From the IMG/VR virus record IMGVR_UViG_3300044707_000453, positions 1-23,921 of that record: a stretch of DNA of 23,921 bases. One strand, given 5' to 3'. The position numbers and the translations under genes were made by a program. Source of the stretch: a virus. The notes under the pieces were generated by a model. It did not search any database and was not told where the DNA came from. It saw only the letters and a program-made list of their open reading frames with translations. This document shows positions 5,857-22,591 of the stretch, in pieces (the first letter of the stretch is position 1; each line of letters starts with the position of its first letter).

Positions 5857-6339
5857 ATGACGCTCTCGCAGACGCACGTGATGGGCCACGAGGCCAAGCT
5901 CTACCGCAACACGGGCACGGTGGCCAGCCCGACGTGGAACGAAATCGCCAACTGCCGCGACCTTGCCGTCGCCGACTCCATGACGGATGTGGATGTCTCC
6001 GCCCGCGATGGCGGCGGGTTTGCGATGTCGGATGCCGGTCTGCAAACGCTTGAACTGACCTTCCAGATGATCGGCGATTACGGGGACGCCGATTTCGTCG
6101 CGCTTCAGCAGGGCTACTACGCCCGCACGCCGATCCACTACGCCGTCGCCTCTGGCGCGATCGCGGCGGCAGGGACGCAATACGTCAAGTTCGCGGGCAT
6201 CATCACGTCGTTCCAGCGGTCCGAATCGCTCGACGACGTGACGCTCTACGACGTGACCGTGAAGGTCACGCGGGCCATCTCCGCCGGCGCTCTCGTCCTG
6301 CCCTCGTGGGTCACGGTCACGACCACCGGTACGCCGTAA
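5857..6339 (+). CDS. Major tail tube protein
   Basis: A 160-residue beta-rich protein with the typical tail-tube opening (MGHEAKLYRNTGTVASPTWN, followed by NCRDLAVADS). Strand pairs follow in TLELTFQMIGDYGDADF and VKFAGIITSFQRSESLDDV, and the end reads LYDVTVKVTRA. Tail tube proteins of the lambda gpV / TP901-1 group stack as hexameric rings to form the tube of a long non-contractile tail; no sheath gene follows. The gene lies between the terminator-like gene and the tail assembly chaperone pair, the standard siphovirus order. The ATG at 5857 sits 10 bases after the upstream stop with an AAGGG-like ribosome site. Confidence 0.8.
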   Translation: MTLSQTHVMGHEAKLYRNTGTVASPTWNEIANCRDLAVADSMTDVDVSARDGGGFAMSDAGLQTLELTFQMIGDYGDADFVALQQGYYARTPIHYAVASGAIAAAGTQYVKFAGIITSFQRSESLDDVTLYDVTVKVTRAISAGALVLPSWVTVTTTGTP

Positions 6340-6389: not shown

Positions 6390-6869
6390 ATGTTCAAAGA
6401 CAAGACCGGCCGCTCGTGGGACTGTACGCTTTCCATCGCGGCCCTGCGGCGGATCAAGACGATGCTCGACGTGGACCTGCTCGACCTTCTCGCGGGCGGC
6501 TCCGTCGCCGAAGGCGTCAAGCGGGTGATCCTGTCGCCCCAATCCGCGTGCGACGTGCTCTACGTGGCCATTAAGCCGCAGGCCGACGCCGCGGGCCTGA
6601 CGGACGAGCAGTTCGGCGAGCTTCTCGCGGGCCAAGTGCTCGCCGATGGACTCGCCGACCTGCTCACGGAGATCGAGGTTTTTTTCGAGGCGACGCAGGG
6701 ACCGGCGGCAGCGGCAGCCCTGCGGGCGATGCGAGCCAAGCGGGACCAGATCGCCGCGAGCGTGTGGACTCAGGCCCGCGAGCAGATCGAAGCCGAGCCC
6801 CTGCCGGTGATCCCTGGCGGATCGTCTGGCGCCTCGCCGGAGAACTCGGAGTCGATCCCGGACCGCTGA
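6390..6869 (+). CDS. Tail assembly chaperone (gpG-like)
   Basis: A 159-residue protein translated from ATG 6390, preceded by a good ribosome site (AGGAG, 6 bases away). The N-terminal part MFKDKTGRSWDCTLSIAALR, KTMLDVDLLDLLAG and SACDVLYVAIKPQ resembles the helical tail chaperones encoded between tail tube and tape measure in siphoviruses. These bind the tape measure and help build the tail, and are absent from the mature virion. Residues ~90-130 are helical and acidic. The last 35 codons overlap the next gene in the -1 frame, the classic G/GT arrangement. A T TTT TTC heptamer within this gene is a candidate frameshift site. Confidence 0.75.
   Translation: MFKDKTGRSWDCTLSIAALRRIKTMLDVDLLDLLAGGSVAEGVKRVILSPQSACDVLYVAIKPQADAAGLTDEQFGELLAGQVLADGLADLLTEIEVFFEATQGPAAAAALRAMRAKRDQIAASVWTQAREQIEAEPLPVIPGGSSGASPENSESIPDR
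6680..6686 (+). promoter_or_regulatory. Candidate -1 ribosomal frameshift heptamer T TTT TTC
   Basis: Seven consecutive T residues (6679-6685) followed by C place TTT-TTC codons (6681-6686) in the zero frame, giving an in-frame X XXY YYZ heptamer. A -1 slip leaves both codons read as Phe. It enters the frame at 6686 that is open without a stop through to the end of the 6764-7099 gene. Against it, 60 zero-frame codons follow the site, more than in lambda G. The zero frame also keeps the better third-position GC bias for the first ~26 codons after it. Confidence 0.45.
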
Positions 6870-7099
6870 CCTGGTGGCAACTGACGACGATGGCCGAGGC
6901 CCGTTCGCGGGACCGATGGGAGCACACGAGCAGCATGATCTACGCCACCATCGCCGCCCAGAATCCGAAGGCCGCCAAACGCCTCAGCCCCGCCGACTTC
7001 AATCCATGGCGCCGCGCTGGCAAGGCTCGCGGCAATCCGCTGACCGTGGGCCAACTGCTCGCGATGCGTGGCATGTTCCCGGAGGACGGAGCCCAATGA
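6764..7099 (+). CDS. Overlapping tail assembly chaperone extension (gpT-like, -1 frame)
   Basis: The clearly coding part reads IVWRLAGELGVDPGPLTWWQ, then LTTMAEARSRDRWEHTSSMI and SPADFNPWRRAG. It matches the phage tail-chaperone second subunit pattern, in which a DPxxxTxxEL segment is followed by a W-containing helix and PADFNP. The first start codon in this frame is the GTG at 6764, with no obvious ribosome site; the next, ATG 6890, would cut off the conserved LGVDPGPL segment. The alternative is production as a frameshifted fusion with the 6390 gene through the T TTT TTC site, with a Gly/Ser/Ala-rich linker in between. The stop overlaps the next ATG. Its role would be binding the tape measure during tail assembly. 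Start and mode of expression are uncertain. Confidence 0.7.
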   Translation: MDSGPRADRSRAPAGDPWRIVWRLAGELGVDPGPLTWWQLTTMAEARSRDRWEHTSSMIYATIAAQNPKAAKRLSPADFNPWRRAGKARGNPLTVGQLLAMRGMFPEDGAQ

Positions 7100-7797
7100 G
7101 CCTGACGCTCAAAGCCAAGGTCAAGGACTTCTTTTTCGACCGCGAAGAAGTCCGCAAACGCTTGTCGGCCAAACGCCTCTCCGCGCTCAAAAAGGCCGGC
7201 GCCCTCTCGCGAAAAATCATCCGCCGCAAGCCGCGTAAACGCAAACGAAAAAGCCGCCCCGGCGAGACGCCAACCGTCCATAGCGAAAGTCGGTACGCGA
7301 CCCTGAAGAACGTGCAGTTCGCGTACGACCCGTCGGCCGATTCCGTCGTCGTCGGCCCAATTCGCATTGGCGCCGACCAGATGCTTTCCGGCCCGACGAC
7401 TGTCCCCGAAATGATGGAATACGGCGGAGGCAAGCGATACAACGAACTCTGGCGCAAGATGCGCGTCGGTGGAAGCGGCCCCATCGAAGTCGACCAAAAG
7501 CGGACGACCTCCAGCCCCAAATGGGGCCAGTCCCGCGAAGCGCCGGACGTGAATCGTGGGCGCCTCGGCGGCACTGCCCAAAAGTTCGTCGTCGACCAAA
7601 AAGGCAACGAGCGGATGGTGGTCTTTGTGCCGATCGAAACACCGGCCCAGGCCGCCCGCGCCCAGCGTCTCCATGACGAAGTATGGGGGCCGAAGTTCGT
7701 CGCGGCCAACATCGACGCCCGTCCCTTCGTCGGCCCCGCAATGGTCGAAGCGGCGGACAAATACCCGGACCTTTATGCCGAAGCAGGAACCCAATGA
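7096..7797 (+). CDS. HK97 gp10-like tail/neck component
   Basis: A 233-residue protein whose ATG overlaps the preceding stop. The N-terminal half is very basic (SRKIIRRKPRKRKRKSRPGE), and a strand region VQFAYDPSADSVVVGPIRIG follows. The closing motif is DARPFVGPAMVEAADKYPDL. The order basic arm, SVVVGP, then RPFxGPA near the C-terminus is the HK97 gp10-like signature of small tail-completion or minor tail proteins. In this genome the gene lies after the chaperones rather than before the tail tube, and the protein is longer than the usual ~130-150 residues because of an insertion around residues 100-165. The exact position in the virion is unknown. Confidence 0.6.
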   Translation: MSLTLKAKVKDFFFDREEVRKRLSAKRLSALKKAGALSRKIIRRKPRKRKRKSRPGETPTVHSESRYATLKNVQFAYDPSADSVVVGPIRIGADQMLSGPTTVPEMMEYGGGKRYNELWRKMRVGGSGPIEVDQKRTTSSPKWGQSREAPDVNRGRLGGTAQKFVVDQKGNERMVVFVPIETPAQAARAQRLHDEVWGPKFVAANIDARPFVGPAMVEAADKYPDLYAEAGTQ

Positions 7798-8324
7798 GCA
7801 ACACCTATTTAACCGCCGCCCTCTCCCTCGCCGGCTCCGAGGTGTTCTCCCAATCCGAAGCACCGAGCGGCGCGAGCGTCTCGCAGCGGACCCTGGCCGT
7901 GACCGGCGCGGACATGACCGCTTCGCTCGACGCCCAATCGACGCCCAAGCTGGAGGTCTCGCCAATCGTCCGGCGCATCACCATCAGCGGCACGACCACG
8001 ATTGACCTGACCGCCGCCGCCGGCGCGGCTCTTCCGATCGCCGCGTCCCGCACGATCGACGCGAGCGGCAAGAAGTTGGTCGCGGTCCGCTTGTCGTGCC
8101 CCACAACCAACGCGGGCGCCGTCAACGTGGCTCCGGGCGCGTCGAACGGTTACGCCATGTTCGGCAGCTCGAACGATATCGACGTGCGGCCTGGAGAGAC
8201 GATCATCGCGATCATCAACGCCGTGGCGTCGAGTAAGCCAGCCGTCTCCGGCTCGGCGAAGAACCTCGACATCAGCGGCACGACCAACGATGTGATCCTC
8301 GTCGAACTCTACTTCGGAACCTAA
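7794..8324 (+). CDS. Beta-rich phage protein of unknown function
   Basis: A 176-residue protein starting with an ATGA overlap. It is rich in Ser/Thr/Ala with alternating strands: RRITISGTTTIDLTAAAGAA, LVAVRLSCPTTNAGAVNVAP, then SNDIDVRPGETIIAI and KNLDISGTTNDVILVELYFG. No cysteine-pair or catalytic motif is seen. The layout (a strand carrying a polar ligand, a glycine turn, then a PGE turn) looks like a small beta-sandwich of the kind used in virion surface proteins. Its place between tail genes and the tape measure suggests a minor virion protein, but I cannot name a family. Confidence 0.6.
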   Translation: MSNTYLTAALSLAGSEVFSQSEAPSGASVSQRTLAVTGADMTASLDAQSTPKLEVSPIVRRITISGTTTIDLTAAAGAALPIAASRTIDASGKKLVAVRLSCPTTNAGAVNVAPGASNGYAMFGSSNDIDVRPGETIIAIINAVASSKPAVSGSAKNLDISGTTNDVILVELYFGT

Positions 8325-8327
8325 CCC

Positions 8328-10037
8328 ATGCCCGGCGCCTCAACCGTCAAAGCAGGCCGCGCGTGGTGGGAAATCACCGCCGAAGACAAGGCCTCGAAGG
8401 TAATCGAAGCCGTGTCCGAGCGGCTCGAATCCATGGGCCGCACGACGATGGTGGCCGGCGCCGCGATTGCCGCCGCAGGCGCGGCCATCGTTGGCCCAGT
8501 GCTCGCCGCCGCCCAGTCCTGGAGCGACTACGCTGGCGACCTCGAAGACGCTTCGATTCGCACGGGCCTATCGGTCGAGTCGCTGTCCACCCTGCAACTC
8601 GCGGCCGAGGAGGGCGGCGCGTCGGCCGAGGCCCTCACCAAGGGCCTGATCGGCGTCGCCAAGTTCGCCGACGCGGTCGGCAAAGGATCATTTGAAGCCA
8701 CCGCCGCCCTCGACCAGATGGGCCTCTCCGCCGCCACCTTCCTGGCCGCGTCTCCCGACGAGCGCGTGAAGCTTTTGGCCGACGGAATCTCCCGCATCCC
8801 CGACCCATCGAAGCGGGCCACAACCGCGATGAAAGCCTTCGGCAAGGCGGGCGTCGAACTCCTGCCGATGCTCGCCCAAGGCGGCGCGGGGATCGCCGCG
8901 ATGCAGCAACAGTTCGCCGACCTTGGCCTCGCCGTGCCCTCGAAGGACATCGGCATGTTCGCGGCCTGGGGCGACAGCATGGCCGTGATCGGGAAACAGC
9001 TCAAACGCATCTGGCAGGAATTCGGCGCGGCCCTTATCGAAGCCGTCACGCCATTCATTCCGATCATCACGCAGGCCCTCGCCGCCGCCATCGAATTCGC
9101 GCAGAACAACCGTGGCCTTATCAAGATCGTGCTCGCCGTCGGCGCGGCCCTCGTCACCGTCGGCACCGCCGTCTTCGGCGTGGGCGCCGCTCTCGCGACG
9201 GCCGGCGCCATCATCTCCGGCATCGGCTCCGCACTCGTGGCCATCGGCCCCATCGTCGCAGCCATCTCCGCCGCGTTCGCGTTCCTCGCCGGCCCCGTGG
9301 GTCTCGCGATTCTCGCCGTGGCCGCCGTCATCTCCGTGGTCACCGCGCTCGGCGTGGCGTTCGTGCAATTGACCGACGCCGGAGCCCGCGCGTGGTCGGC
9401 CCTGACGAGCGGAATCATGGTCGTCTGGCAGCGGTTCAAAGAAGTCATCGGCGGCATCGCGAACGCCCTTCTGGCGGGCGAGTGGGGTCTCGCCGTCAAC
9501 ATCGCCTGGGCCGGCGTGATGCTCGTCTTCGAACACAATTTGGCGGTGCTGTCGAAGGGCTTTTGGTCGATCGCCGAGACCCTGGGCGACTCGATTTTGT
9601 GGGGTCTCCGCAAGGTGGAGTCCGCGTTCGAGTACATCTTCGGACCAGTGGGGATAATCTCGGCCGCCCAAGACAAGCTGCGGCTCTTCGCCGACGAGCA
9701 ACGCGCCGCCGCCGACGCCGGAGTGGCCGCCCAGCGGGCAGAACTGGACAAGCTGATCGCGGAAGCCGACGCGGCCCGCCAGCGGACCAAACAGCGGTTC
9801 GACTTCGGCCGCGCGCCGCCCGGGGCCGACATCTCGCAGACGACCGCCGCGGGCGGAGCGACGGCCGCCCAGCAGCAGGCGGGAGTCCTCGGAACCTTTA
9901 GCGCCACGGTCGCCGGTATGCTCGGCGACATGCGGCCGGACGTCATGCAGTCGATCGCGGAAAACACCGGCAAGGCGGCCGAGACGCTCGACCGCATTGA
10001 AGGCAAGATGGCCGAGGGCGGCCTGGAGTTCGAGTAA
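8328..10037 (+). CDS. Tail tape measure protein
   Basis: A 569-residue protein. The N-terminal ~230 residues are helical with a typical tape-measure start (WWEITAEDKASKVIEAVSER) and a segment ASIRTGLSVESLSTLQLAAE often seen in these proteins. Residues ~260-350 form a long Ala/Val/Ile/Gly-rich hydrophobic region with several possible membrane spans (AVGAALVTVGTAVFGVGAAL and on). This is expected of tape measures that insert into the host membrane during DNA entry. The C-terminal part is again helical and Ala/Gln-rich. At roughly 1.5 angstrom per residue the tail would be only ~85 nm. ATG at 8328 comes 3 bases after the previous stop. No peptidoglycan hydrolase domain is visible. Confidence 0.88.
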   Translation: MPGASTVKAGRAWWEITAEDKASKVIEAVSERLESMGRTTMVAGAAIAAAGAAIVGPVLAAAQSWSDYAGDLEDASIRTGLSVESLSTLQLAAEEGGASAEALTKGLIGVAKFADAVGKGSFEATAALDQMGLSAATFLAASPDERVKLLADGISRIPDPSKRATTAMKAFGKAGVELLPMLAQGGAGIAAMQQQFADLGLAVPSKDIGMFAAWGDSMAVIGKQLKRIWQEFGAALIEAVTPFIPIITQALAAAIEFAQNNRGLIKIVLAVGAALVTVGTAVFGVGAALATAGAIISGIGSALVAIGPIVAAISAAFAFLAGPVGLAILAVAAVISVVTALGVAFVQLTDAGARAWSALTSGIMVVWQRFKEVIGGIANALLAGEWGLAVNIAWAGVMLVFEHNLAVLSKGFWSIAETLGDSILWGLRKVESAFEYIFGPVGIISAAQDKLRLFADEQRAAADAGVAAQRAELDKLIAEADAARQRTKQRFDFGRAPPGADISQTTAAGGATAAQQQAGVLGTFSATVAGMLGDMRPDVMQSIAENTGKAAETLDRIEGKMAEGGLEFE

Positions 10038-10040
10038 ATC

Positions 10041-10892
10041 ATGGTCGACATCTTTCAGCGGTTCGACTCCGCGAACCTGACTCTCACGAACAAAGACGCC
10101 GGCGCGGTCTCGCGCTACGTCTGCCGTGGTCCGCTGTCGCAGGACGAGGCCCTGTACCAAATCGTCCTGACCACGCCGCTGGCCTATCAAGTCGGCCCGC
10201 GACGGTTGATCCGCCAACAGGTCACGTGCTCGCCAATCGGCCCCGCGATGTGGCAAGCGGAGGTGACGTACGGCCCCGACGACGACCCGCGCAGCGAACC
10301 CGAGAAGGCGGCCGGGGACTACGACTTTTCTTTCGACACGATGGGCGCCACGGCACGTAAGCAGTTGTCCGAAAAAACGGTCTCGTCGTATTGGCTGTGG
10401 TCGATGTCGAACATGCCGCCCGACTTGGGCCGAGCGATCGGAGCGCAGGGGAACAAAGTCGAAGGCGTCGATGTTGTGGTTCCGAAGCTCGAATTCACGG
10501 TCACGGCTCACTACGCCCCGCGAACCGTCACGATCGACTGGGTTAAGGGCCTGGCCCGCGCGACGGGCCGCGTAAACTCCGATCCGTGGCTCGGGTTCGC
10601 GGCAGGCGAGTTGCTGTTCATGGGCGGTCGCGGCCAAGGGCCAATTGACACGCTCGTCGGCCCGCAGCAGAAGCCCGTGGCCATCACCCTCCAGTTCGCG
10701 GCATCGGAAAACCGCGACGACCTGACGTACGGCAGCAATCCCGAGAAGATCAAGAAAGACGGCTGGGATTACCTGTGGGTGCGGTACGAGCGAGTCCGCG
10801 AATCGGGCCTCGAATATCCGGTGCCCGTCCACGCCTACGTCGAGCAGGTTTACCCGCGCGGCGAATTCACCCCGTTTTTCGGATTCGGCTAA
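10041..10892 (+). CDS. Tail-tip-like protein following the tape measure
   Basis: A 283-residue protein, ATG 3 bases after the tape measure stop. It contains YDFSFDTMGATARKQLSEKT, then GAQGNKVEGVDVVVPKLEFT, DPWLGFAAGELLFMGGRGQG, and near the end KKDGWDYLWVRYERVRES with PVPVHAYVEQVYPRGEF. The mix of strands and conserved aromatic/Gly segments looks like a family that sits directly behind the tape measure in related phages. Position implies a distal tail or baseplate-hub role, with the following Thr-rich protein as its fibre. No enzyme motif is present. I recognise the pattern but cannot attach an established name. Confidence 0.62.
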   Translation: MVDIFQRFDSANLTLTNKDAGAVSRYVCRGPLSQDEALYQIVLTTPLAYQVGPRRLIRQQVTCSPIGPAMWQAEVTYGPDDDPRSEPEKAAGDYDFSFDTMGATARKQLSEKTVSSYWLWSMSNMPPDLGRAIGAQGNKVEGVDVVVPKLEFTVTAHYAPRTVTIDWVKGLARATGRVNSDPWLGFAAGELLFMGGRGQGPIDTLVGPQQKPVAITLQFAASENRDDLTYGSNPEKIKKDGWDYLWVRYERVRESGLEYPVPVHAYVEQVYPRGEFTPFFGFG

Positions 10893-10898
10893 GCCACT

Positions 10899-13094
10899 AT
10901 GCCCAAAAAAGTCCACCCCGGCGAGAAGGTCCGCAAGCTCTCCGCCGCCACCTGGAACGATATGTCGGCCGTGGTCGCCGAATGGCGGGGCCGTCGCGTC
11001 ACGCTCGACGGCGGCGCGGCCGAGCTGGTGGCCCGCGACGCCACGCGGTTGCTCGTCGAGAACTCGACCGGCCAAGACCTGCCGCCGTTTTCGGTCGTCG
11101 GCCTGGGCGAACCGTGGGTGGACCCGTCCGCGTCGCCCGCCGCCGAAGAGCAGTTCGTCGCCCGCTCAGGCATCCTGGGCGTCGTCCCCACCGAGGCGAC
11201 CCGTGGCCGCTTCGGCATCGTGTCCGGCGGCGTGCTGGCGGGCACCGTCTCCGACGCCGTTGTCTCCGGCGTGACCGTCTGCCGCGTTCTCGTCCGACCG
11301 GGCGAGGAATCGTACCAATACGCCGACGTGGAGCCCGGGGCCGTCGATGTGCTCCGCGCCGTCGTCTGTGGGTCCGCCCGAATCCTCTGGCGGGAACCCG
11401 GCGTCTGCGAACGCTGGGCGATCATCCGGATCGGCGACGACTGCTCTCCGCAGACCAGCGCGACGACCACGACGACCACTACGACCTCGACCACGACAAC
11501 GCCACCGGGCGAGACGACCCCGTGCGCCGGCGTCTGCCGATGGACGTGGAGCGTGGCCGCCAACGCCTGGAGCCTGACGAGCAACGGCTGCTCTGCCGCG
11601 ACCACGACGACGACGAGCAGCACCACGACGACCACCAGCACGACATCGACTACCACCGGATCGCCCGACCCGTGCGGCCGACCGCCGGCCCTGACGACCA
11701 CGACGCCGATCCCCGAGACGACGACGACGACCGCGACGACGAGCACGACGACGGCGGCCCCGTGCGGCTGCTCCTACCCCACGTGGTGTCACTGGGAGGA
11801 CGGAGCCTGCACCGATACCGTCTGCGTGCCCGGCGAGCAGACCGTGACGCTGGTCTGCACTACGACGACCTCGACGACATCGACCACGACGCCGGTCCCG
11901 TGCGACTGCGCGACCACGACCACGAGCACCACCACCGCCCAGCCCGGATGCTCGATCGGCTGCACCTGGGTTGGCGTGCCCGTGACGGGTTCGCTGTGGC
12001 AGTGGCGGCTCGACTCGAACGGCTGCAGCCCAGGCTGCCCGTGCCCGCCACCGACGGGCAACCCGTACTGCGGCACCGCGACCACGGCCTGCGTCACAAC
12101 CTCGACCGCTCCGCCGCCACCGCCGCCCGTTTGCACCGGCGGCTGCGTCTATTGGTGGCTGCCGTCAATCAACCAGTGGCACCTCAAAGAGCGAAATTGC
12201 AACACGAACTATCCCGGCTGCGAATGCGTCCGGCCATCGTACCAGGGCGACCAGTGCTCGCCGGTGCTCGTGCCGTGCGTGGCGCCGACAACGACGACGA
12301 CCACGAGCACCACGACCACGCCGCCGCTGTGCTGGCAGTGTTACACCACGACAACGACGACCACGACGACTACCGCCGCGCCCAACCCGTGCGCGACGCA
12401 ATCGTGTTGGTGGCGGTGGAACGTCAACGCCTATCTCCTGCTCGCCAGCGGATGCCCGCCGGAGTGCCCCTGCCTGCCGCCGACCGATACCGTCCACGAT
12501 GCGGATTGCCAGCGCTGGCGGACGCCCTGCGTGGGCACCACGACGACCACGACCACGACTACGACGACGACCACGAGCACCACGTCGACGACGACATGCT
12601 GCCCGCAGCTCACGCCCGGCGTGTCGTACGCTCTATTCCGCTGCGGCGCCAACGGCATCGACTACGAGGCGACCAATTGCGTCTGCCCCGAAGGGCAAGC
12701 CGCCGCCCAGCCACCGGGGCCGTGCGGAGGCTACGGGCCAACGTCATGCGTCCCATGCGGATCAACGACGACATGCCCGCCATGCTCGGCGGTGACGCCC
12801 AAGCAGGATCAATGCACCGGCTCGTGCGTGTGGCAATCCGCGCTCGCGCTTGATGGGTCGTTTTTTTACATTGGTCCGGGTAATGGACCAAATGGCGGGT
12901 GCGTCGGCGGTGATTGCGCGTGCCTAAATCCGTGCGACGAACTGGGGCTGCCAGCGTGCGAAGCAAAGTATCAGCTCGTCGAAACGCCGTGCCGATATAA
13001 CACCACGACGACGACCACGACCACGACGACAACGACCACCACGACCACCAGCGGCACGACGCCTACCACCGCCCCGCCGCCCGGAGGGCCGTAA
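10899..13094 (+). CDS. Cysteine-rich, polythreonine-linked tail protein (candidate receptor-binding fibre)
   Basis: A 731-residue protein. Residues ~1-180 form a conventional domain (LSAATWNDMSAVVAEWRGRR, GQDLPPFSVVGLGEP, YADVEPGAVDVLRAVVCGSA, ILWREPGVCERWAIIRIG), probably the attachment to the tail tip. After ~183 the chain becomes an array of Cys/Trp modules joined by long Thr tracts with occasional Ser/Pro. The modules lie near 209-231, 351-398, 412-460, 498-544 and 639-698. They share a C-x(2,3)-C-x-W start, a Trp in the middle and a C-x-C-P-like second half. Thr runs reach 13 (547-559) and 16 (702-717). No signal peptide is seen, as expected for a virion protein. The mucin-like linkers and the glycosyltransferase cassette just downstream suggest O-glycosylation. 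Receptor binding is inferred from position and architecture. Confidence 0.8.
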   Translation: MPKKVHPGEKVRKLSAATWNDMSAVVAEWRGRRVTLDGGAAELVARDATRLLVENSTGQDLPPFSVVGLGEPWVDPSASPAAEEQFVARSGILGVVPTEATRGRFGIVSGGVLAGTVSDAVVSGVTVCRVLVRPGEESYQYADVEPGAVDVLRAVVCGSARILWREPGVCERWAIIRIGDDCSPQTSATTTTTTTTSTTTTPPGETTPCAGVCRWTWSVAANAWSLTSNGCSAATTTTTSSTTTTTSTTSTTTGSPDPCGRPPALTTTTPIPETTTTTATTSTTTAAPCGCSYPTWCHWEDGACTDTVCVPGEQTVTLVCTTTTSTTSTTTPVPCDCATTTTSTTTAQPGCSIGCTWVGVPVTGSLWQWRLDSNGCSPGCPCPPPTGNPYCGTATTACVTTSTAPPPPPPVCTGGCVYWWLPSINQWHLKERNCNTNYPGCECVRPSYQGDQCSPVLVPCVAPTTTTTTSTTTTPPLCWQCYTTTTTTTTTTAAPNPCATQSCWWRWNVNAYLLLASGCPPECPCLPPTDTVHDADCQRWRTPCVGTTTTTTTTTTTTTSTTSTTTCCPQLTPGVSYALFRCGANGIDYEATNCVCPEGQAAAQPPGPCGGYGPTSCVPCGSTTTCPPCSAVTPKQDQCTGSCVWQSALALDGSFFYIGPGNGPNGGCVGGDCACLNPCDELGLPACEAKYQLVETPCRYNTTTTTTTTTTTTTTTTSGTTPTTAPPPGGP
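11463..13050 (+). repeat. Dispersed (ACN)n tracts encoding polythreonine
   Basis: At least nine ACN-codon tracts occur inside the fibre gene, roughly at 11463-11501, 11601-11657, 11694-11756, 11859-11891, 11913-11936, 12288-12320, 12345-12374, 12537-12596 and 13002-13050. ACG and ACC are mixed with some ACA and ACT, so these are not perfect microsatellites. They keep the Thr frame and are broken by AGC (Ser), CCN (Pro) or GCN (Ala) codons. Recombination between tracts could change the number of Cys modules. Confidence 0.85.
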
Positions 13095-13119
13095 CACGCC
13101 CTGGCCCATTCGCGGTACA

Positions 13120-13147
13120 CTGGGTTGAGCAACGCTAACCAACCCAG
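13120..13147 (+). promoter_or_regulatory. Inverted repeat overlapping the ribosome site of the glycosyltransferase gene
   Basis: CTGGGTTG (13120-13127) pairs perfectly with CAACCCAG (13140-13147) across a 12-base loop. The right arm runs into the Shine-Dalgarno AGGAG (13146-13150) for ATG 13158. A hairpin here could lower translation of the glycosyltransferase or serve as a protein-binding site. There is no T tract, so it is not a classical terminator. Confidence 0.5.
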
Positions 13148-13157
13148 GAGACCCGGT

Positions 13158-15104
13158 ATGCCACCGCTACTCACCATCGGCTGCGCGACGATCCGCGACT
13201 ACCACGGCCTGTATTTCACGATCCAGTCCTTGCGCCTCCAGGCCCTCGCGGGCGGCATGGCCAGCGACATCGAATTCGTGGTCGTGGACCAAGACCCGCA
13301 AAACGAGCACGGCGGAGCCGCCAAGGCGTTCGTCGAGGGCTACGCGGGCAAGCGATGCGCCGGGGCGCGGTACATCGCCATGCCTGAGATGCGCGGCACC
13401 ACCCAGCCCCGCCAGCGCATTTTTGACGAGGCGAAGGGCGATTGGGTCATGGTGCTCGACTCGCACGTGATCCTGCCGCCCGGCGTGCTGGAGCAGATCC
13501 ACGATTGGTGCGACGAGCACCCGACCGACTCGGATCTCCACCAAGGCCCGCTGCTCTACGACGGTCTCGACCTGCAATCGGTCTCCACCCACTTCGATGA
13601 CGTGTGGCGCGGCGGCATGTGGGGCCGCTGGGAAACGGACCGCGCCGCACTCGCGGCCGGCAAGCCCTTCCCAATCCACGCCCAGGGCCTCGGAATGTTC
13701 TTGTGCCGCCGCGAGTCGTGGCCCGGATTCGATCGCCGTTGGCGCGGGTTCGGCGGCGAAGAGGGCTGCATCCACGAGGTATTTCGGCACCGGGGCGACC
13801 TGGCGATGTGCCACCCCGACTGGCTGTGGGTTCACCGCTTCGCGAAGCCTGGCGGCGTCAATGTGCCCGCCTACACGTACAGCAAGGCCCGCAACTACGT
13901 GCTGGGGTTCCAGCGCGTCGGCCGCGACATCGACGAGATCCGGCGGCATCTGGTGGTCGAACTCGCCAACGACCCCGACCCGCTCGTGCGCAAGCAAGCC
14001 CTGCCCGCCGCAGATTGGGACTACCTCGTCGCCAACCCCGACAAGGAATTGCCGCCCAACGTCCTGCCGATGGAGGAACTCGAGCGCAAGCAGGCCGCCC
14101 AGGTGCAAGGCTACGCCCCGCCGCCGTCGTCGATGGCCCAACCGCCCGATGTGTCGACGGTCGGCGCGATCGCCCGGTGGGCTGCCCAAACGCCGCGCGA
14201 CCTCGACCAGCACGCCCAGGCCCTCGCCCAGTTCGCCGAGGAGCGTCACGTCGTCGAACTCTCCAAGCGCCGCGAGTCCGCCGCCCTGCTCCTCGGCGGG
14301 CGGCCCAAGTCGCTCCTGTCGTTCTGCTCCGAGCGTGACGCCCTCCAAGACGCCATTCACTGGGCCGTCCGCACCGAGAACCCGGCGTGGCTCTCGGCCT
14401 ACACCCACGGCGCCCTCGCGTCGCTTGCCGATACGCTCTCCGTGTCGATCCCGGATTGTGACGCCTTGTTCATCGACACGTTGCACAGCGGCGAGCGGAT
14501 CTACCAGGAGCTAACCCGCCACTCCCCGCGAGTCCATCAGGTGATCGCGATTCGCGGGACGGCCGCCTTTGGCGATGTGGCTGAGGGCTCCGCCGCGCCC
14601 GGTCTCTACTTTGGGATCGCCAAATGGCAGGAGGAGCAGGCCGCCAAGGGCCGCCGCTGGGTGCGCGTCTACCGCAGCGACAACCAGTACGGCCTGTCGG
14701 TCTACTCGTGCGACCCAAACGCCCGCGACATCGACACCGGACCAGGCACCGAACTGGCCAACATGCTCCGCCAGATGGGAATCGTGTCGAGCGGTGGCTG
14801 CGACTGCAAAGCCCGGCAAGCGACCATGGACCAATGGGGACCGGCCGTCTGCCGCGAGCGAATCGACGAGATCGTGGGGTGGATTACCGAAGGCGCACCG
14901 CGATGGGGCTGGGCCGAGCGGCTTAAGGCTGCCGTCTACGCCGTGGCCACTGGGATCGCGTGGCAGATCGACCCGACCGACCCGTACCGCTCACTGGTGA
15001 CGATCGCGATTGACCGGGCCGAGGCCAGGGCGCCACGCGTGCCCGATCCGGAGCGCGAAGCCGATGAAGACAGAATTCGCTATGTCGATAAGGACGAACA
15101 ATAA
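13158..15104 (+). CDS. Trimodular glycosyltransferase: GalNAc-transferase-like GT2 + methyltransferase-like domain + Cys motif domain
   Basis: A 648-residue protein; ATG 13158 follows AGGAG by 7 bases, preferred over an upstream in-frame TTG at 13125. Residues ~1-265 are a GT-A fold GT2 enzyme with VVVDQDP, the metal motif LDSH (Asp101, His103) and GLGMFLCRRESWPGFD. Then come GFGGEEGCIHEVFRHRG (197-213) and WLWVHRF (His226). The DxH motif plus the WGGEN-like block and a late His is the layout of polypeptide GalNAc-transferases, so transfer to a Ser/Thr hydroxyl is plausible. Residues ~355-490 resemble a class I SAM methyltransferase (DALFIDTLHSGERIYQEL). Its glycine loop is degenerate (VVELSKRRES), so it may be inactive. 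Residues ~525-580 hold CDCKARQATMDQWGPAVC, possibly metal-binding. It lies directly after the Thr-rich fibre gene. Donor and acceptor are not proven. Confidence 0.8.
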   Translation: MPPLLTIGCATIRDYHGLYFTIQSLRLQALAGGMASDIEFVVVDQDPQNEHGGAAKAFVEGYAGKRCAGARYIAMPEMRGTTQPRQRIFDEAKGDWVMVLDSHVILPPGVLEQIHDWCDEHPTDSDLHQGPLLYDGLDLQSVSTHFDDVWRGGMWGRWETDRAALAAGKPFPIHAQGLGMFLCRRESWPGFDRRWRGFGGEEGCIHEVFRHRGDLAMCHPDWLWVHRFAKPGGVNVPAYTYSKARNYVLGFQRVGRDIDEIRRHLVVELANDPDPLVRKQALPAADWDYLVANPDKELPPNVLPMEELERKQAAQVQGYAPPPSSMAQPPDVSTVGAIARWAAQTPRDLDQHAQALAQFAEERHVVELSKRRESAALLLGGRPKSLLSFCSERDALQDAIHWAVRTENPAWLSAYTHGALASLADTLSVSIPDCDALFIDTLHSGERIYQELTRHSPRVHQVIAIRGTAAFGDVAEGSAAPGLYFGIAKWQEEQAAKGRRWVRVYRSDNQYGLSVYSCDPNARDIDTGPGTELANMLRQMGIVSSGGCDCKARQATMDQWGPAVCRERIDEIVGWITEGAPRWGWAERLKAAVYAVATGIAWQIDPTDPYRSLVTIAIDRAEARAPRVPDPEREADEDRIRYVDKDEQ

Positions 15105-15715
15105 TGAACCTAGTTATTGCCGAACTGCTCGCCACCAGCGAGCCAATCAACCAGCTTGCGGCGGCTAACGATCATTCGTGGTTTCCCGAGTGGCAGGGGT
15201 TCTTCAGCAATCGCGAAGGGCTAGCGTACGCGCTCGCGGCCGAGGGCCGAACCGTGCTCGAAATCGGCTCGTGGAAGGGCCGATCAACGATGTTCGCGGC
15301 GGCCACGGCCAAGCGAATCTACGCGATCGATACGTGGCGCGGAGACGACTACGCCGGCCGTGGGTGGTTCTTCCCGGAATTCGAGCAAAACTGCCGGGAG
15401 GAGATCGTGGCCGGGCGGATCGTGCCGGTGATGTGCGACTTCCGGGATCCGCTTGTCACGCGCGGCTTTGGCGGCTGCGAAGTGGTTCTTTACGATGCGG
15501 ACCACTCTGACGACGCCGTCGGGGTCTTTATGCGACGATTCTGTTATTGCAACTGGTCGCGTCTGTTAATTCATGATTGCGATTATGACAACGAGAAGAA
15601 GGCAATAGCGTACCTCGCGGAAAACAACTTGTGCCGCGTCTCCTACGCGGACCGGCTTGCCGTAATCGCCATGTCCGATGATCCCATCCACGCCCGCCTG
15701 GAGACCCGCCCATGA
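15104..15715 (+). CDS. Class I SAM-dependent methyltransferase (MTase_24 / CmcI-like)
   Basis: A 203-residue protein whose ATG shares one base with the previous stop (TAATG). Motif I is intact, VLEIGSWKGRS (51-61). It is followed by RIYAIDTWRGDD with the acidic residue expected to bind the SAM ribose, and by VVLYDADHSDDAV (128-139), typical of methyltransferases that act on small molecules or sugars. Later parts of the gene (~15540-15620) are noticeably AT-richer than their neighbours, a hint of separate ancestry. Placed between two glycosyltransferases, it most likely methylates the sugar they add or its precursor; methylation of a protein or another metabolite remains possible. Confidence 0.78.
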   Translation: MNLVIAELLATSEPINQLAAANDHSWFPEWQGFFSNREGLAYALAAEGRTVLEIGSWKGRSTMFAAATAKRIYAIDTWRGDDYAGRGWFFPEFEQNCREEIVAGRIVPVMCDFRDPLVTRGFGGCEVVLYDADHSDDAVGVFMRRFCYCNWSRLLIHDCDYDNEKKAIAYLAENNLCRVSYADRLAVIAMSDDPIHARLETRP

Positions 15716-16467
15716 ACATCTGCGTCCTAATGCCCACCTACGGCCGCACGCGCGAATTGATCGAGAACGCCATCGCCTGTTTCGAAAGCCAGACCCACGT
15801 CGACGAGGGGTGGTGGCACGAGCAGCAGGGCCGCCGCTGGTCGCTCCTGCGGTCCCCGCAGCGAGCGCCCGACCTGGGGTCGAAATACAACTGGATGGTG
15901 CGTCACGCCCGCGCGAACTGGACCGACTGGACCGGCCTACCCGGCAAGCCCGATGCCTACGCGGTGTGGGATGACGACGACATCTACCTCCCGTGGCATC
16001 TGCACGCCGTTGCCGAGGCCCTCGCCACGCGGGCCTGGGCGCATCCCGGCGCGGTCTGGTCGACCTACACCGGCTCGCCGCAGATCGAGGAGGCCGCGGG
16101 GCGATTCCACGGGGCACTGGCGGTCCGCGACATCGCCGCCGATTGGGTCGAGACGCGGCGCAGCACCTTCGACCAGGAGATGCTCGCGCGTCTCCAGGCC
16201 ACCTACGGCACCCCTGGCCGCCCGGATGACTACGGCTCCCCGTCGTACGTCTTCCGCTGGGCGGATACCGGGTCGCATCACTGCCAAGCCTACATGCGAG
16301 GCCGTGACGACGAGACGTGGTACGACCGCTACGCCGAGGTGATCCGCGAGCGCCGAGCAGCGGCCGGCGAACGCCCGCCGGAGATCCTCGTGCCGCGGTT
16401 CGACGCGGCAGCGTCGAGGACGCGGGGACTGATCGAGCAGCAGCTCGGCCGCGCGGTGTGGAGATGA
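15712..16467 (+). CDS. GT2-type glycosyltransferase
   Basis: A 251-residue protein starting in an ATGA overlap with the methyltransferase gene. It opens with the GT-A signature ICVLMPTYGRTRELIENAIA, and DLGSKYNWMVRHAR corresponds to the usual conserved region before the metal site. YAVWDDDDIYLPWHL (DDDD at 87-90) carries the DxD motif that binds Mn2+ and the nucleotide-sugar. The C-terminal part (PSYVFRWADTGSHHCQAYMR) could form the acceptor side. No membrane segment is present, so it should be cytoplasmic. It ends the three-gene cassette and may extend or branch the sugar placed by the 13158 enzyme. The sugar donor cannot be read from the sequence. Confidence 0.75.
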   Translation: MNICVLMPTYGRTRELIENAIACFESQTHVDEGWWHEQQGRRWSLLRSPQRAPDLGSKYNWMVRHARANWTDWTGLPGKPDAYAVWDDDDIYLPWHLHAVAEALATRAWAHPGAVWSTYTGSPQIEEAAGRFHGALAVRDIAADWVETRRSTFDQEMLARLQATYGTPGRPDDYGSPSYVFRWADTGSHHCQAYMRGRDDETWYDRYAEVIRERRAAAGERPPEILVPRFDAAASRTRGLIEQQLGRAVWR

Positions 16468-18610: not shown

Positions 18611-18710
18611 TTGTCTCATCGACTGTCTGATCGTGGTGTCGGCCCCGCTCGCCACCCTGGCGGTGATCGCGGCAGCGGCCGAGGTTTGTTTGTTTGGACT
18701 TTATCCTTAG
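18603..18710 (+). CDS. Small single-span membrane peptide
   Basis: A 35-codon reading frame starting with GTG that overlaps the CsrA-like stop by 8 bases. It is preceded by GGAGG about 9 bases upstream. It encodes a nearly continuous hydrophobic stretch (CLIVVSAPLATLAVIAAAAE) with an acidic N-terminus, consistent with one membrane span. It ends just before the ribosome site of the exonuclease gene, filling what would otherwise be a gap. Function is not recognisable; small membrane proteins at this place may be superinfection or lysis-related. Shortness makes the call uncertain. Confidence 0.4.
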   Translation: MVDCLIDCLIVVSAPLATLAVIAAAAEVCLFGLYP

Positions 18711-18720
18711 GAGATTGTTT

Positions 18721-19800
18721 GTGATCCCGAAATGGCAACTAAAAGCGGCGCTCGACGAAATCGCCGAGCGCGGCGAAGAACACGGGCAGATGCACGCCCT
18801 GTCTGTGCGGTTCGACTGCTGGCTCGATGTCCACGATTGGGGCGATAAGCATTGGCTCGCCGAGCGCCGCAAGGGCATTGGCGGGTCCGACGCCGCCGCC
18901 GCTGTCTGTGTCAGCCCTTGGAAGCACGCCCTCGGCCTCTGGGCGGAGAAGTGCGGCATCGCCGAACCGGAGGCCCCGGCCGACGCCCAGGCGGTGCGGA
19001 TGGGCCACCTGCTGGAGCCGGTGGTGCTCGAAGCCTACCGGCAGGAGCGCCCCGACGCCCAGTGCGACCTGTGGCCCCAACACGTGATCGTTCACGACGA
19101 CGAGCGGCCGTGGCTCCGCTGCACGCCAGACGCGATTGGCTGGGACGCCGGCCGCCGCGACTGGTATCTCATCCAGATCAAGACGGCCCGCGAGACGGCC
19201 CCGCGCGAAACGCCGGTGCACTACGAGATCCAGTGCCAGCACGAGATGATGGCTACGGGGCTCGACCGCTGCCTGCTGCTGACGCTCTACGGCGGCCGCG
19301 ACCTGACGGTGGTGCAGCTCGACGCCGACAAGGCCGTGCAGGGGTGGTTGCTCGAAGTCGAGGCCAAGCTGTGGCAGGCGGTCGAGACCCGCGAGCGGCC
19401 GACGTGGGCCGAGGAGTTCGGCGACCCGCGACAAGTGGCCGACGACATGCGGCGCGTCTACCCGTGGGACGATGGCGAGATCGTCGAACTGGATCCGCTG
19501 TTCGCCCAGATATCCGCGGACCTATCCGCGTGGAAACGGCAGCGAAAGGAACTCGACGAACAGATCGAGTACGCCGAGTCGCGGATCAAGACCGCCATCG
19601 GTCCGCACGTCGCGGGCTCGCTGCCGGACGGCTCCGGGGCGTGGTATTGGCAGACGCAGGAGCGCAAAGGCTACACCGTCGAGCCGTCGACCTGCCGCGT
19701 CCTCCGGTTTAAGAAAGCGAAATCGACTGAATTTCGCGACAAGGCGTTGAAGATGGCAGACGAACTAATGCAATCGAACTGGAGTGAAACCAATGAGTGA
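18721..19800 (+). CDS. YqaJ-like viral recombinase (exonuclease)
   Basis: A 359-residue protein started by GTG 18721, seven bases after TAGGAG; the longer in-frame TTG at 18694 lacks a ribosome site. It has the PD-(D/E)xK nuclease pattern of YqaJ/lambda exonuclease: RRKGIGGSDAAAAVCVSPW (49-67), GHLLEPVVLEAY with Glu99, RCTPDAIGW with Asp137, and IQIKTA (Gln152, Lys154). Then comes HYEIQCQHEMMATG with the helix Gln171. The residue before the catalytic lysine is Gln instead of the usual Glu. It degrades one strand of double-stranded ends to give single strands for the annealing protein encoded next; the two genes overlap by 8 bases. The ~110 C-terminal residues are coiled and may contact the partner. 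Confidence 0.85.
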   Translation: MIPKWQLKAALDEIAERGEEHGQMHALSVRFDCWLDVHDWGDKHWLAERRKGIGGSDAAAAVCVSPWKHALGLWAEKCGIAEPEAPADAQAVRMGHLLEPVVLEAYRQERPDAQCDLWPQHVIVHDDERPWLRCTPDAIGWDAGRRDWYLIQIKTARETAPRETPVHYEIQCQHEMMATGLDRCLLLTLYGGRDLTVVQLDADKAVQGWLLEVEAKLWQAVETRERPTWAEEFGDPRQVADDMRRVYPWDDGEIVELDPLFAQISADLSAWKRQRKELDEQIEYAESRIKTAIGPHVAGSLPDGSGAWYWQTQERKGYTVEPSTCRVLRFKKAKSTEFRDKALKMADELMQSNWSETNE

Positions 19801-20701
19801 CGCAGTACAAACGAAACCGCAAACACAAACACCCGCTACGGCAGAGCCGACGGGCATCACGATTGACCTCGCGCACGCGGCGGCCGTTGCGATCCGCCAA
19901 GGCGGCGGAGCGTCCATCGCCACGATGGTCGACGCCATGCAAGTGGCCAAGGTGCTCGCCCTGAGCGCCCAGGCCGTACCGCCGCATTGCCGAGGAAAAC
20001 CGGGCATCTGCCTGGGGATCGTCCTGGCCGCCGCCGAGCTGAATTTGTCGCCGACGGCATTGGCGAACAAAACCTACGTGGTCAACGATCGGCTGGCGTA
20101 CGAGTCGCAGGCCATCCATGCCATCGTCGAGCGGCGGGCACCGCTGGCCCGTCGGCTGCGGCCGATATACATGGGCGAAGGCGAGAATCGCCAATGTCAG
20201 GTCAAAGGGTATTTGCACGGCGAGGAGGAGCCGTTCATTTACACGTCGCCGAAGATCAAAGACATCAAGCCCAAGAACTCGCCGCTTTGGGCGACCAAGC
20301 CGGACTTGCAGCTCTGGTACAACGCTGTACGTGACTGGGCGCGAATGTACGTGCCGGACGTGATCCTTGGCATGTATACCGCCGATGAACTCGACGGGCC
20401 GGCCGCGCCCGCATCCCGACCGCCCCGCACGGCCGCCGAGGCGATGCAACGGGCCACCGCTCCGAGAACCGTGGTGACGCAAGTCGCACCGCCACCGCCG
20501 CCACCCGTGGGCGTGCCTGGGGACTCGCCGGCAATGGCCGCGTGGCGTTCGTCGATCGACGCCGAGGCCGCAGCGGGTCGCGACGTGTCGCGGTGGGCCA
20601 TCCCCGCGACGCTGACCGAGGAGGAGTTCGAAGAGGCCGTGACGTACCGCGACATTTTGACGGCCGCCCGCGAGGCGGCGAAAGGAGACGCGGGGCAATG
20701 A
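19793..20701 (+). CDS. recT: RecT-family single-strand annealing protein
   Basis: A 302-residue protein; ATG 19793 follows GGAG by 8 bases and overlaps the exonuclease stop. After a Thr/Pro/Gln-rich start it shows the RecT core: MQVAKVLALSAQAVPPHCRG, ICLGIVLAAAELNLSPTALA, NKTYVVNDRLAYESQAIHAI, then NSPLWATKPDLQLWYNAVRD and WARMYVPDVILGMYTADE. This is the pattern of phage RecT-type annealing proteins. It coats single strands made by the exonuclease and pairs complementary strands during recombination and recombination-dependent replication. The last ~90 residues are low complexity, with proline runs around 238-242, and may be a flexible tail. A GTG at 19784 is an alternative start. Confidence 0.85.
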   Translation: MSDAVQTKPQTQTPATAEPTGITIDLAHAAAVAIRQGGGASIATMVDAMQVAKVLALSAQAVPPHCRGKPGICLGIVLAAAELNLSPTALANKTYVVNDRLAYESQAIHAIVERRAPLARRLRPIYMGEGENRQCQVKGYLHGEEEPFIYTSPKIKDIKPKNSPLWATKPDLQLWYNAVRDWARMYVPDVILGMYTADELDGPAAPASRPPRTAAEAMQRATAPRTVVTQVAPPPPPPVGVPGDSPAMAAWRSSIDAEAAAGRDVSRWAIPATLTEEEFEEAVTYRDILTAAREAAKGDAGQ

Positions 20702-20937
20702 CCAAGAAACCGGACGCCGAACCGAAGGCGGAAAAAAAGCCGCCGTATCAAGTCGCCAAAGAGGACATCCTGTTCGCCAGCGGCCTGATGTCTGAGATTT
20801 GCGGCTTGGTGATCGAGTGTCATCAAGATTTGCAAAGAGACATCTGGAAGCGCGCCGCGTGTATTTCCGAACTGTTGCGGCAAATGCGAAAAAACGCGGA
20901 GTGGGCCGAGCGGCAGCAAGGAGACGCGAGCAAATGA
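20698..20937 (+). CDS. Hypothetical small protein between recT and the SMC-like ATPase
   Basis: A 79-residue protein starting in an ATGA overlap with recT and ending in another with the next gene. The N-terminal ~20 residues are Lys/Pro-rich (KKPDAEPKAEKKPPYQ), followed by a helix LFASGLMSEICGLVIECHQD and a charged helix WKRAACISELLRQMRKNAEW. No family is recognised. Its strict embedding in the recombination operon suggests an accessory role with the exonuclease, RecT or ATPase. Confidence 0.55.
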   Translation: MTKKPDAEPKAEKKPPYQVAKEDILFASGLMSEICGLVIECHQDLQRDIWKRAACISELLRQMRKNAEWAERQQGDASK

Positions 20938-21155
20938 CAAACCAAGGCGCTTTCGGAAAAAACCAAGGCGATTACGGGCTCGCGGTATCGCATCTCCGCG
21001 AGGCCATTTTGCACTGCATTTTTTTGAGCGCCGACGATGACGCCGAGTTCAAGGGCGACATCGGCACAATGACCCAAATATTCGAGAAGCTAAAGACCAG
21101 GGAAGCCAAAGCAAAGGAGACCAAAGAATGTCTGACATCACCATCCGAAACGTAG
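20934..21155 (+). CDS. Hypothetical small protein overlapping the ATPase gene
   Basis: A 73-residue protein, ATGA overlap upstream and a 28-base overlap with the ATPase gene downstream. It contains DYGLAVSHLREAILHCIFLS and a helical Lys/Glu-rich end, FEKLKTREAKAKETKE. The ribosome site of the ATPase (AAAGGAG) lies inside its coding region, so the two are probably coupled. No family is recognised. Confidence 0.5.
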   Translation: MTNQGAFGKNQGDYGLAVSHLREAILHCIFLSADDDAEFKGDIGTMTQIFEKLKTREAKAKETKECLTSPSET

Positions 21156-22591
21156 GCCCGATAACCGAATGGGCCATCCCGCATCCGGAGCAAGGCGGCG
21201 TGGTCGTGCTCGCAGGCCGCAACGGGTCGGGCAAGTCCACCGCCCTCGAAGCGATCCGCGCGGCGATCGGAGGCAAGGCGGACCTGTCCGCCCGCGACGG
21301 AACGGCTCGTGGCACGATTGAGGCCTTCGGCGCGACCATCACCGTGGCCGCTTCGACCCGCAGGCGTGGCGAGGCCGATGTGGTGTCGATCGAGGGCCGT
21401 GGCGACGTGGCCGCCCTGGTCGACCCCGGGATTGCCGATCCGGTCGCGGCCGACGCGGCGCGAGTTCGGGCCATCGTGGCCATCTCCGGCCGCTCGCTCT
21501 CCGCCGCCGACTTCCGCGACCTGCTGCCGGACCCAGGCGAGTGGGAGCGGCTCGTGGGCGAGATGGCCGCAGGCGATCCCGTCACCTTGGCGGGCAAGAT
21601 CAAGCGGGCCATCGAAGCCGAGGCGCGGCGGCACGGCGAACGGGCGGCGGCGGCGATGAGCACCGCCCAGACGCTCCAGCGGGAGAACGCGGGCATCGAC
21701 ACCACCGGCGAGCACGACGCGGCGGTCCTGGCGGAGAGGTACGCGGCCGCGCGGGCCAACGTGGCCGAGCTGCAAGCCGACGAGCGAGCGTACGCGGCGG
21801 CGGCCAAGCGGCGGGCCAATGCGGAGGCCGAACTTGCTGGCGTGCAGTTTTCGCCGGGAGATTTGGCGGCGGCGGAGGAGCGGGCATTTCACGCGCATCG
21901 GCTAGTCCACAAGCACGCCGACGAAGTGGCGATGATGATCCAGCGGCTTGAAGCGGCCAAGCAGGCCCTGGCAGCGGCTGAAGCCGATGGGCGCATTGCC
22001 GCGACGCTCGCGCGTCAAGCCGAGGCCGACCTGGAAGCGGTCAAGGCCCGCGCCGCTCACGTGGCAACACTCCAAGCGATCGTCGCGGAGGCGTGGGTGC
22101 CGATACCAGCCCCCGACGAAGCGGCGGCGGCGTGGCGCGCCGTCCAAGACGCCAATTCGGCAATGGAAGTCGGTGGCCGAATCCGCGAAGCCCTGCGGCG
22201 GCAGGAGGAGATCCAGCGGGCCCACGCCAAGGCCAGCGAAGCGGCTCGCGACGAGCAGCGGCTACGCGGCGCGGCCCGTGGCGTGGACGGCGTGCTGTCG
22301 GCGGTCGTCTCCGCCTGCTCCGCCGCCCTGCGGGTCGACGATGGGCGGATCGTCACCGATACGGCTCGCGGGCAGACGCTCTACGCTGACCTGTCGCACG
22401 GCGAACGCTGGCGGCTGGCCATCGACTTCGCGATCCGCGCCGTGGGCCGTCGCGGTGTGCTGGTCTGTCCGCAGGAGGCATGGGAGGGACTGGACCCCGA
22501 CAACCGCGAGTCGGTGCGGATCCAGCTCGAAGGGTCGGGCGTGACGCTCTACACGGCGGCGTGCTCGGATGGCGAAAGGGCGGTGGCGTGA
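21128..22591 (+). CDS. SMC/RecF/RecN-like ATPase of the recombination module
   Basis: A 487-residue ABC-type ATPase. The Walker A motif is GRNGSGKST (30-38) after a short N-terminal sheet. A long Ala/Glu/Arg-rich coiled-coil region spans roughly 150-320. The ABC signature YADLSHGERWRLAIDFAI has LSHGE at 422-426, and the Walker B position reads VLVCPQEAWEGLD (444-456). Instead of hhhhDE, the last positions are Pro-Gln-Glu: the catalytic Glu is kept while the Asp is replaced. ATG 21128 follows AAAGGAG. Proteins of this shape (RecF, SbcC and phage gp46 relatives) organise or hold DNA ends; here it would work with the YqaJ nuclease and RecT encoded upstream. No partner Mre11-type nuclease gene is visible, so the YqaJ protein may fill that place. 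Confidence 0.82.
   Translation: MSDITIRNVGPITEWAIPHPEQGGVVVLAGRNGSGKSTALEAIRAAIGGKADLSARDGTARGTIEAFGATITVAASTRRRGEADVVSIEGRGDVAALVDPGIADPVAADAARVRAIVAISGRSLSAADFRDLLPDPGEWERLVGEMAAGDPVTLAGKIKRAIEAEARRHGERAAAAMSTAQTLQRENAGIDTTGEHDAAVLAERYAAARANVAELQADERAYAAAAKRRANAEAELAGVQFSPGDLAAAEERAFHAHRLVHKHADEVAMMIQRLEAAKQALAAAEADGRIAATLARQAEADLEAVKARAAHVATLQAIVAEAWVPIPAPDEAAAAWRAVQDANSAMEVGGRIREALRRQEEIQRAHAKASEAARDEQRLRGAARGVDGVLSAVVSACSAALRVDDGRIVTDTARGQTLYADLSHGERWRLAIDFAIRAVGRRGVLVCPQEAWEGLDPDNRESVRIQLEGSGVTLYTAACSDGERAVA

Follow-up and report, generated by a model that had tools for sequence, protein, structure and literature searches.

Dedicated initiation of mucin-type glycosylation on threonine-rich polypeptides is textbook animal and protist biology, and virion glycosylation is known in mycobacteriophages. 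The polypeptide N-acetylgalactosamine (GalNAc)-transferases of family GT27 have been described with a GT-A fold, a DxH motif and a lectin domain (PMC4202792), and glycosylation of phage virions has been proposed, for example as putative capsid glycosylation in mycobacteriophage Maravista (PMC11256854). The window analysed here is the whole of IMG/VR virus record IMGVR_UViG_3300044707_000453 (positions 1–23,921), a tailed phage of 23.9 kb, in which the gene of a structural protein with threonine (Thr) tracts, P0001, is followed by that of a glycosyltransferase (GT), P0002. We consider it likely that P0002 is a soluble cytoplasmic phage enzyme that O-glycosylates the Thr tracts of this adjacent virion protein in the manner of mucins. 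The locus is laid out as follows.

10899–13094, + strand: P0001, structural (probable fibre) protein of 731 amino acids (aa) with Thr tracts and cysteine/tryptophan (Cys/Trp) modules; proposed acceptor
11463–11501, + strand: P0001 Thr/serine (Ser) tract of 13 residues (189–201)
11601–11657, + strand: P0001 Thr/Ser tract of 19 residues (235–253)
12537–12596, + strand: P0001 Thr/Ser tract of 20 residues (547–566)
13002–13052, + strand: P0001 Thr16-Ser tract (702–718)
13107–13157, + strand: intergenic stem-loop containing a GGAG ribosome-binding site (RNA fold −20 kcal/mol over 13095–13160)
13158–13934, + strand: GT-A domain of P0002 with DxH, GGEE and H, polypeptide GalNAc-transferase-like; proposed Thr O-glycosyltransferase
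13935–15104, + strand: C-terminal half of P0002, methyltransferase-like (CmcI/TylF type, possibly degenerate), with a Cys-containing C-terminal region common to its relatives
15104–15715, + strand: P0003, class I S-adenosylmethionine (SAM) methyltransferase (Methyltransf_24, E=1.2e-7, above cut-off)
15712–16467, + strand: P0004, second GT-A glycosyltransferase, with a WDDDDIYLP motif

An initial annotation made from the letters of the DNA had described a GT2 enzyme with LDSH and GFGGEE...WLWVHRF motifs, separated from the fibre gene by a hairpin, and both descriptions were borne out. The motifs are present in P0002, which matched PF00535 (Glycos_transf_2) with E=1.9e-10 (41.4 bits against a gathering cut-off of 23.3), and the −20 kcal/mol stem precedes ATG 13158, which after GGAG is the most likely start of the protein, the mechanical start being TTG 13125. 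Used as a single sequence, P0002 had no match among Protein Data Bank (PDB) sequences and a single-sequence search for relatives returned nothing, so that an alignment-based search was needed. From an alignment of the window domain and 91 relatives, AlphaFold2 produced a GT domain model with a mean confidence (pLDDT) of 96.1, for which the top 50 Foldseek matches in the PDB were all GT27 polypeptide GalNAc-transferases (best E=6.6e-13, GalNAc-T2). Structural alignment with VIA-align gave a Z of 23.6 and 2.8 Å over 240 residues for GalNAc-T2, whereas chondroitin polymerase scored 19.7, the teichoic-acid enzyme RmlT 18.9 and TarS lower still. The GalNAc-transferase likeness claimed in the annotation is thus upheld, and the model supports polypeptide GalNAc-transferases, not lipid- or DNA-sugar transferases, as the structurally closest group.

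Residues D101, H103, E201 and E202 were invariant in 92/92 GT sequences and H226 was kept in 91/92, with a spacing of 25 between E201 and H226 in 92/92. In GalNAc-T2, Asp224, His226 and His359 are the manganese ligands and Glu334 contacts the peptide (PMC4432651); Glu334 and His359 are also 25 apart, a correspondence to E201 and H226 drawn by motif and spacing and not by superposition. P0002 therefore resembles GT27 enzymes in its GT-A fold, its DxH motif, its GGE block with a His 25 after its Glu, and the Thr/Ser-rich nature of its proposed acceptor. It differs from them in several respects, as identity is only 16–17%, a methyltransferase-like C-terminal domain stands in place of the ricin-type lectin (beta-trefoil) domain, which had no match in P0002 at E≤1, and the type II membrane anchor of the Golgi enzymes is lacking, no membrane segment being evident in P0002 (maximum 19-residue hydropathy 1.16), which is predicted to be cytoplasmic. 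Because the lectin domain and the membrane anchor are missing, P0002, as judged from its sequence and model, would not be filed under GT27, though it is proposed to work like a GT27 enzyme. The GT2 enzymes K4CP (chondroitin polymerase), RmlT and TarP share the GT-A fold of P0002, and the N-terminal part of the GT had profile similarity to TarP (1e-7) and K4CP (8e-6); unlike the role proposed for P0002, these enzymes act on polysaccharide or teichoic acid, and their whole-domain Z values were 19.7 or less.

The proposed acceptor P0001 contains 157 Thr, 57 Cys and 22 Trp in its 731 aa, and its Cys/Trp modules are separated by nine tracts of Thr and Ser of 6–20 residues each. Uninterrupted Thr extends over at most 16 positions (702–717), in agreement with the annotated modules joined by polythreonine of up to 16 residues. 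Thr codons in the tracts were ACG (54%), ACC (34%), ACA (7%) and ACT (5%), a mix resembling the rest of the window, and the third base differed in 69 of 106 neighbouring Thr codon pairs, indicating that the tracts are held at the protein level and are not a simple DNA microsatellite. This codon heterogeneity shows selection for Thr. A module profile derived from the window's P0001 matched Thr-tract open reading frames (ORFs) just upstream of the GT in other viral loci (L126, 4e-9; L125; L135; weakly L051), and a single-sequence search for relatives of the P0001 N-terminus found nothing. The position of its gene suggests that P0001 is a tail fibre.

Linkage between the enzyme and poly-Thr was surveyed with a search that used only the DxH and GGEE stretches of the GT alignment and was blind to Thr. 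This search returned at least 475 relatives from viruses and 90 from genomes, of which 80 each were retained, and 52 viral loci were left after removal of near-copies. With a Thr-tract ORF defined by at least 12 Thr in 20 residues, such an ORF was present in 31/52 non-redundant viral GT loci, in comparison to 0/53 viral loci drawn at random by means of an arbitrary 15-mer (p 5e-13 by Fisher's test; 30/52 when limited to tiled ORFs), many contigs being fragments, which weakens the counts of GT loci and of Thr-tract loci alike. In 22 of the 31 cases the end of the Thr ORF was followed within 150 nucleotides (nt) by the GT match, against 3.0 expected if the ORF lay before a random gene of the locus, and Thr was the only one of the 20 amino acids enriched at GT loci. 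No Thr-rich ORF was found within 1.5 kb of nine other GT2 genes on random viral contigs, some of them near-copies. The window itself sits in a supported clade of 11 phages, all with Thr tracts. The co-occurrence implied by the initial annotation is accordingly seen far above control in the direction from enzyme to tract. Searches of 50,697 phage records, with the window protein at E 1e-5 and with two relatives at 0.01, and of a plasmid collection at the limits used, detected no GT relatives, and the system seems to be missing from cultured phages.

Bacterial relatives of the GT were found in Oricola, Labrys, Bradyrhizobium, Desulfobulbaceae, Rhodococcus and others, where in the loci examined the GT forms the C-terminal part of proteins of about 600–800 aa and is preceded by an HprK_rel_A-like P-loop domain (E=6e-25).

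L206 4975–7314: HprK-like/GT fusion
L220 4329–6734: HprK-like/GT fusion
L263 5017–6831: HprK-like/GT fusion
L224 4999–6840: HprK-like/GT fusion

These GT loci lie near PqqD (PF05402) and NTP_transf_5 (PF14907) genes, a likeness to the HprK_rel_A (TIGR04352)/PqqD neighbourhoods, and sometimes also carry a P0004-like GT or a sulfotransferase. They are unlike the HprK_rel_A system in that the bacterial domain falls below the equivalog cut-off (87.8 in L206 against 200), and domain searches found no HprK_rel_A domain in the phage protein. Near the bacterial GT are small proteins with twin-arginine-type signals that end in poly-Thr or TTTAAP-like tails, one of which, in L220, matched a TAT domain; these partner proteins have Thr-rich tails in common but not Cys/Trp modules. 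Thr tracts were present in 11/71 bacterial loci when ORFs were tiled, a figure preferred over the 20/71 of a first screen that could count wrong reading frames as Thr-positive. Among 17 bacterial genomes, 20 distinct (ACN)9 tracts occurred in nine, and 12 of the 20 lay inside the 12.7-kb GT loci, which account for roughly 0.2% of the sequence; in this tract count, 13 of 18 loci had been picked in the knowledge that they had Thr tracts. The bacterial linkage is good for the proteobacterial examples and tentative as a general rule.

Downstream of the GT domain, the annotated SAM methyltransferase and second GT2 enzyme in overlapping frames were recovered, with overlaps of 1–4 nt between cassette genes. 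P0003 matched Methyltransf_24 as listed above; P0004 itself had no match in a Pfam search, and its assignment comes from 15 of 19 proteins in its alignment that match PF00535 and from an AlphaFold2 model (pLDDT 78) with GT2 GT-A structure matches at about 5e-5. In the C-terminal half of P0002, Methyltransf_24 was detected in 8 of 11 homologues (best 1.3e-7; 0.044 for the window copy), and the fused methyltransferase of the window may be inactive, since its HDT motif is lost and reads RGT. L163 and L183 repeat the order of fibre, GT-methyltransferase fusion, methyltransferase and second GT, and variants of this order occur in L126, L177, L052, L051, L125 and L127. In L126, a sulfotransferase (PF03567) fused to a Methyltransf_24 domain lies between the GT and the second GT (6754–7893), making a sulfated, methylated glycan possible there. 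P0003, P0004 and the fused methyltransferase are the genes expected for glycan extension and decoration, and they may act on one glycan, whose putative methylation is suggested by the methyltransferase family call.

Several observations weigh against transfer of sugar to Thr tracts as the role of the GT. Its sequence similarity to GT27 was weak (GALNT4, E=0.002), and no PDB sequence was matched when only the C-terminal half of the GT domain served as query. A scan for a Thr4-Ser-Thr4 coding pattern, which selects on Thr, gave 120 viral loci, and the GT was present in only 4 of the 74 Thr-tract loci in which 1 kb or more of sequence followed, although in each of these four it lies close downstream of a Cys-rich Thr-tract ORF. 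PF00535 was found in 5/50 Thr-tract contigs, with the four known GT contigs omitted, in comparison to 5/42 random contigs. A Cys-rich Thr-tract fibre in L106 has no GT2 match in its 32-kb contig, and similar Thr-tract proteins occur without (L110) and with (L063) an adjacent P0004-like GT (L110 1492–2274; L063 5139–5894), which in L063 lies 13 nt downstream. In an unselected set of 49 genomes, several actinobacterial genomes had many Thr tracts away from the GT. Lastly, a marine T4-like clade has the GT in its replication region, and Thr tracts are absent from the 5 kb around it; there the GT follows a PD-(D/E)XK-like gene and adjoins helicase/primase-like and nuclease-like genes (L138 4980–5843, L180 4959–5858). 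The 108-kb contig of L138 encodes elsewhere a protein of 1823 aa that contains 121 Cys and an extended T/S/A/P-rich domain (L351 9160–14628), and no comparable Cys-rich T/S/A/P-rich protein was found in the 68-kb contig of L180.

The enzyme thus predicts a Thr tract, whereas a Thr tract does not predict the enzyme. One clear phage clade, the T4-like one, keeps the enzyme without a tract nearby. Of the initial interpretation, in which the cassette builds a methylated glycan on Thr tracts of the phage's own fibre, putatively for host binding, protease resistance or immune-like evasion, the GT fold, the co-occurrence with Thr and the cassette order stand, and a strict pairing with Thr tracts does not, failing in the reverse direction (4/74). 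The place of the GT among the replication genes of the T4-like clade led us to consider DNA-sugar transfer, which was rejected as a general role, as fold and Thr linkage point to protein; it may apply in the T4-like clade alone.

The best surviving alternative, which we regard as unlikely, is that the target of the cassette is a surface glycan of the host (O-antigen, capsule or teichoic acid), which it would alter like serotype-converting prophage genes, with the Thr tracts serving only as flexible linkers. The resemblance of the fold to RmlT, TarP and chondroitin polymerase and the lack of a GT beside most Thr-tract proteins are consistent with this. Against it, polypeptide transferases are the best fold match by about 4 Z units, P0002 shows no evident membrane segment, a GT immediately downstream of a Thr ORF recurs in divergent phages as a linkage specific to Thr, and the bacterial relatives lie near Tat-exported poly-Thr proteins, not in recognised polysaccharide clusters. 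We view as improbable that the GT modifies the virion protein at its Cys/Trp modules or at other residues, the Thr tracts being spacers or modified otherwise, for instance by phosphorylation. Such a scheme could draw on the HprK_rel_A-like P-loop domain fused to the enzyme in bacteria at E=6e-25, and on Thr tracts that occur without a GT, but the phage protein has no HprK domain, the bacterial partners have Thr-rich tails and no Cys/Trp modules, and across contexts only Thr is enriched. That the neighbourhood is a hitch-hiking accident, on the view that moron genes accumulate in phage tail regions and that tail fibres often contain poly-Thr linkers, is very improbable: enzyme and fibre genes do both change rapidly, and the random contig L313 has a different, unclassified enzyme after a fibre without Thr tracts, but the counts of 31/52 against 0/53, with 22 directly adjacent against 3.0 expected, and the reach of the pairing into bacterial chromosomes speak against chance.

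The remainder of the window was assigned by Pfam and PHROG searches, except where stated, and comprises the following features.

645–2201: lambda-type portal
2194–4278: protease-capsid fusion
5857–6339: major tail protein
8328–10037, + strand: tape measure protein, giving tail context (PHROG tail length tape measure, E=4e-25)
10041–10892, + strand: protein of 283 aa in distal-tail position, family unassigned
18694–22591: YqaJ-like exonuclease, RecT-like protein and SMC/RecN-like ATPase, judged by eye to be a recombination module

Pfam and PHROG profile searches gave no match for the 283-aa tail protein, nor did a single-sequence search return relatives; it has one 29% homologue located after a tape-measure-like gene of L313. 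The L313 tail module to which this homologue belongs (7760–11429) has the fibre without Thr tracts and, after it, a protein of no recognised class that begins like a GT (VTIGIPVRGQID...LLVDTG), an arrangement that looks as if the enzyme had been exchanged together with the fibre. A long Asp/His-rich ORF at 10775–12853 that overlaps the fibre gene was rejected as a frame shadow of the ACN repeats, although automatic annotators may call it.

The analysis shows the anatomy of the sequences, the match in fold and motifs, and the genetic linkage, from which we infer catalysis, the donor, the type of linkage, the acceptor residues and a biological role. In this mechanism the Thr/Ser tracts of P0001 would receive a sugar, probably an N-acetylhexosamine from a uridine diphosphate (UDP) donor, through the P0002 GT-A domain while still in the cytoplasm and ahead of assembly. 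The glycosylated tracts would form stiff mucin-like stalks between disulphide-stabilised Cys/Trp modules, P0004 would probably extend or branch the glycan, and capping by the methyltransferase(s) may follow. As in virion glycosylation of the Maravista type, a phage-encoded GT would act on structural proteins of the phage itself; unlike that system, the GT here is of a different family and its proposed acceptor is poly-Thr tracts. In bacteria, the HprK-fused enzyme probably acts on Tat-exported mini-proteins with Thr-rich tails; the Tat system exports folded proteins, and cytoplasmic modification before export would fit.

In summary, the pairing of this GT with Thr tracts in uncultured phages and bacteria suggests that mucin-like, sugar-coated proteins are made by an undescribed route. 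The open-access literature, to which our search was confined with subscription papers not covered, yielded no paper that describes a poly-Thr transferase from phages or bacteria. We give roughly even chances to the broader proposal that prokaryotes and phages share a widespread mucin-type O-glycosylation, in which a cytoplasmic GT27-like transferase dedicated to poly-Thr tracts serves Tat-exported mini-mucins with HprK-like/PqqD partners in bacteria and Cys-rich structural proteins in phages, and may share ancestry with the mucin enzymes of animals. If true, this would constitute a cytoplasmic prokaryotic and phage route to mucin-like proteins, would offer a candidate tool for mucin-like protein production in E. 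coli, and would give a testable role to the functionally uncharacterised HprK-related/PqqD neighbourhoods of bacteria. The presence of this GT family in many environmental phages would be explained as well.

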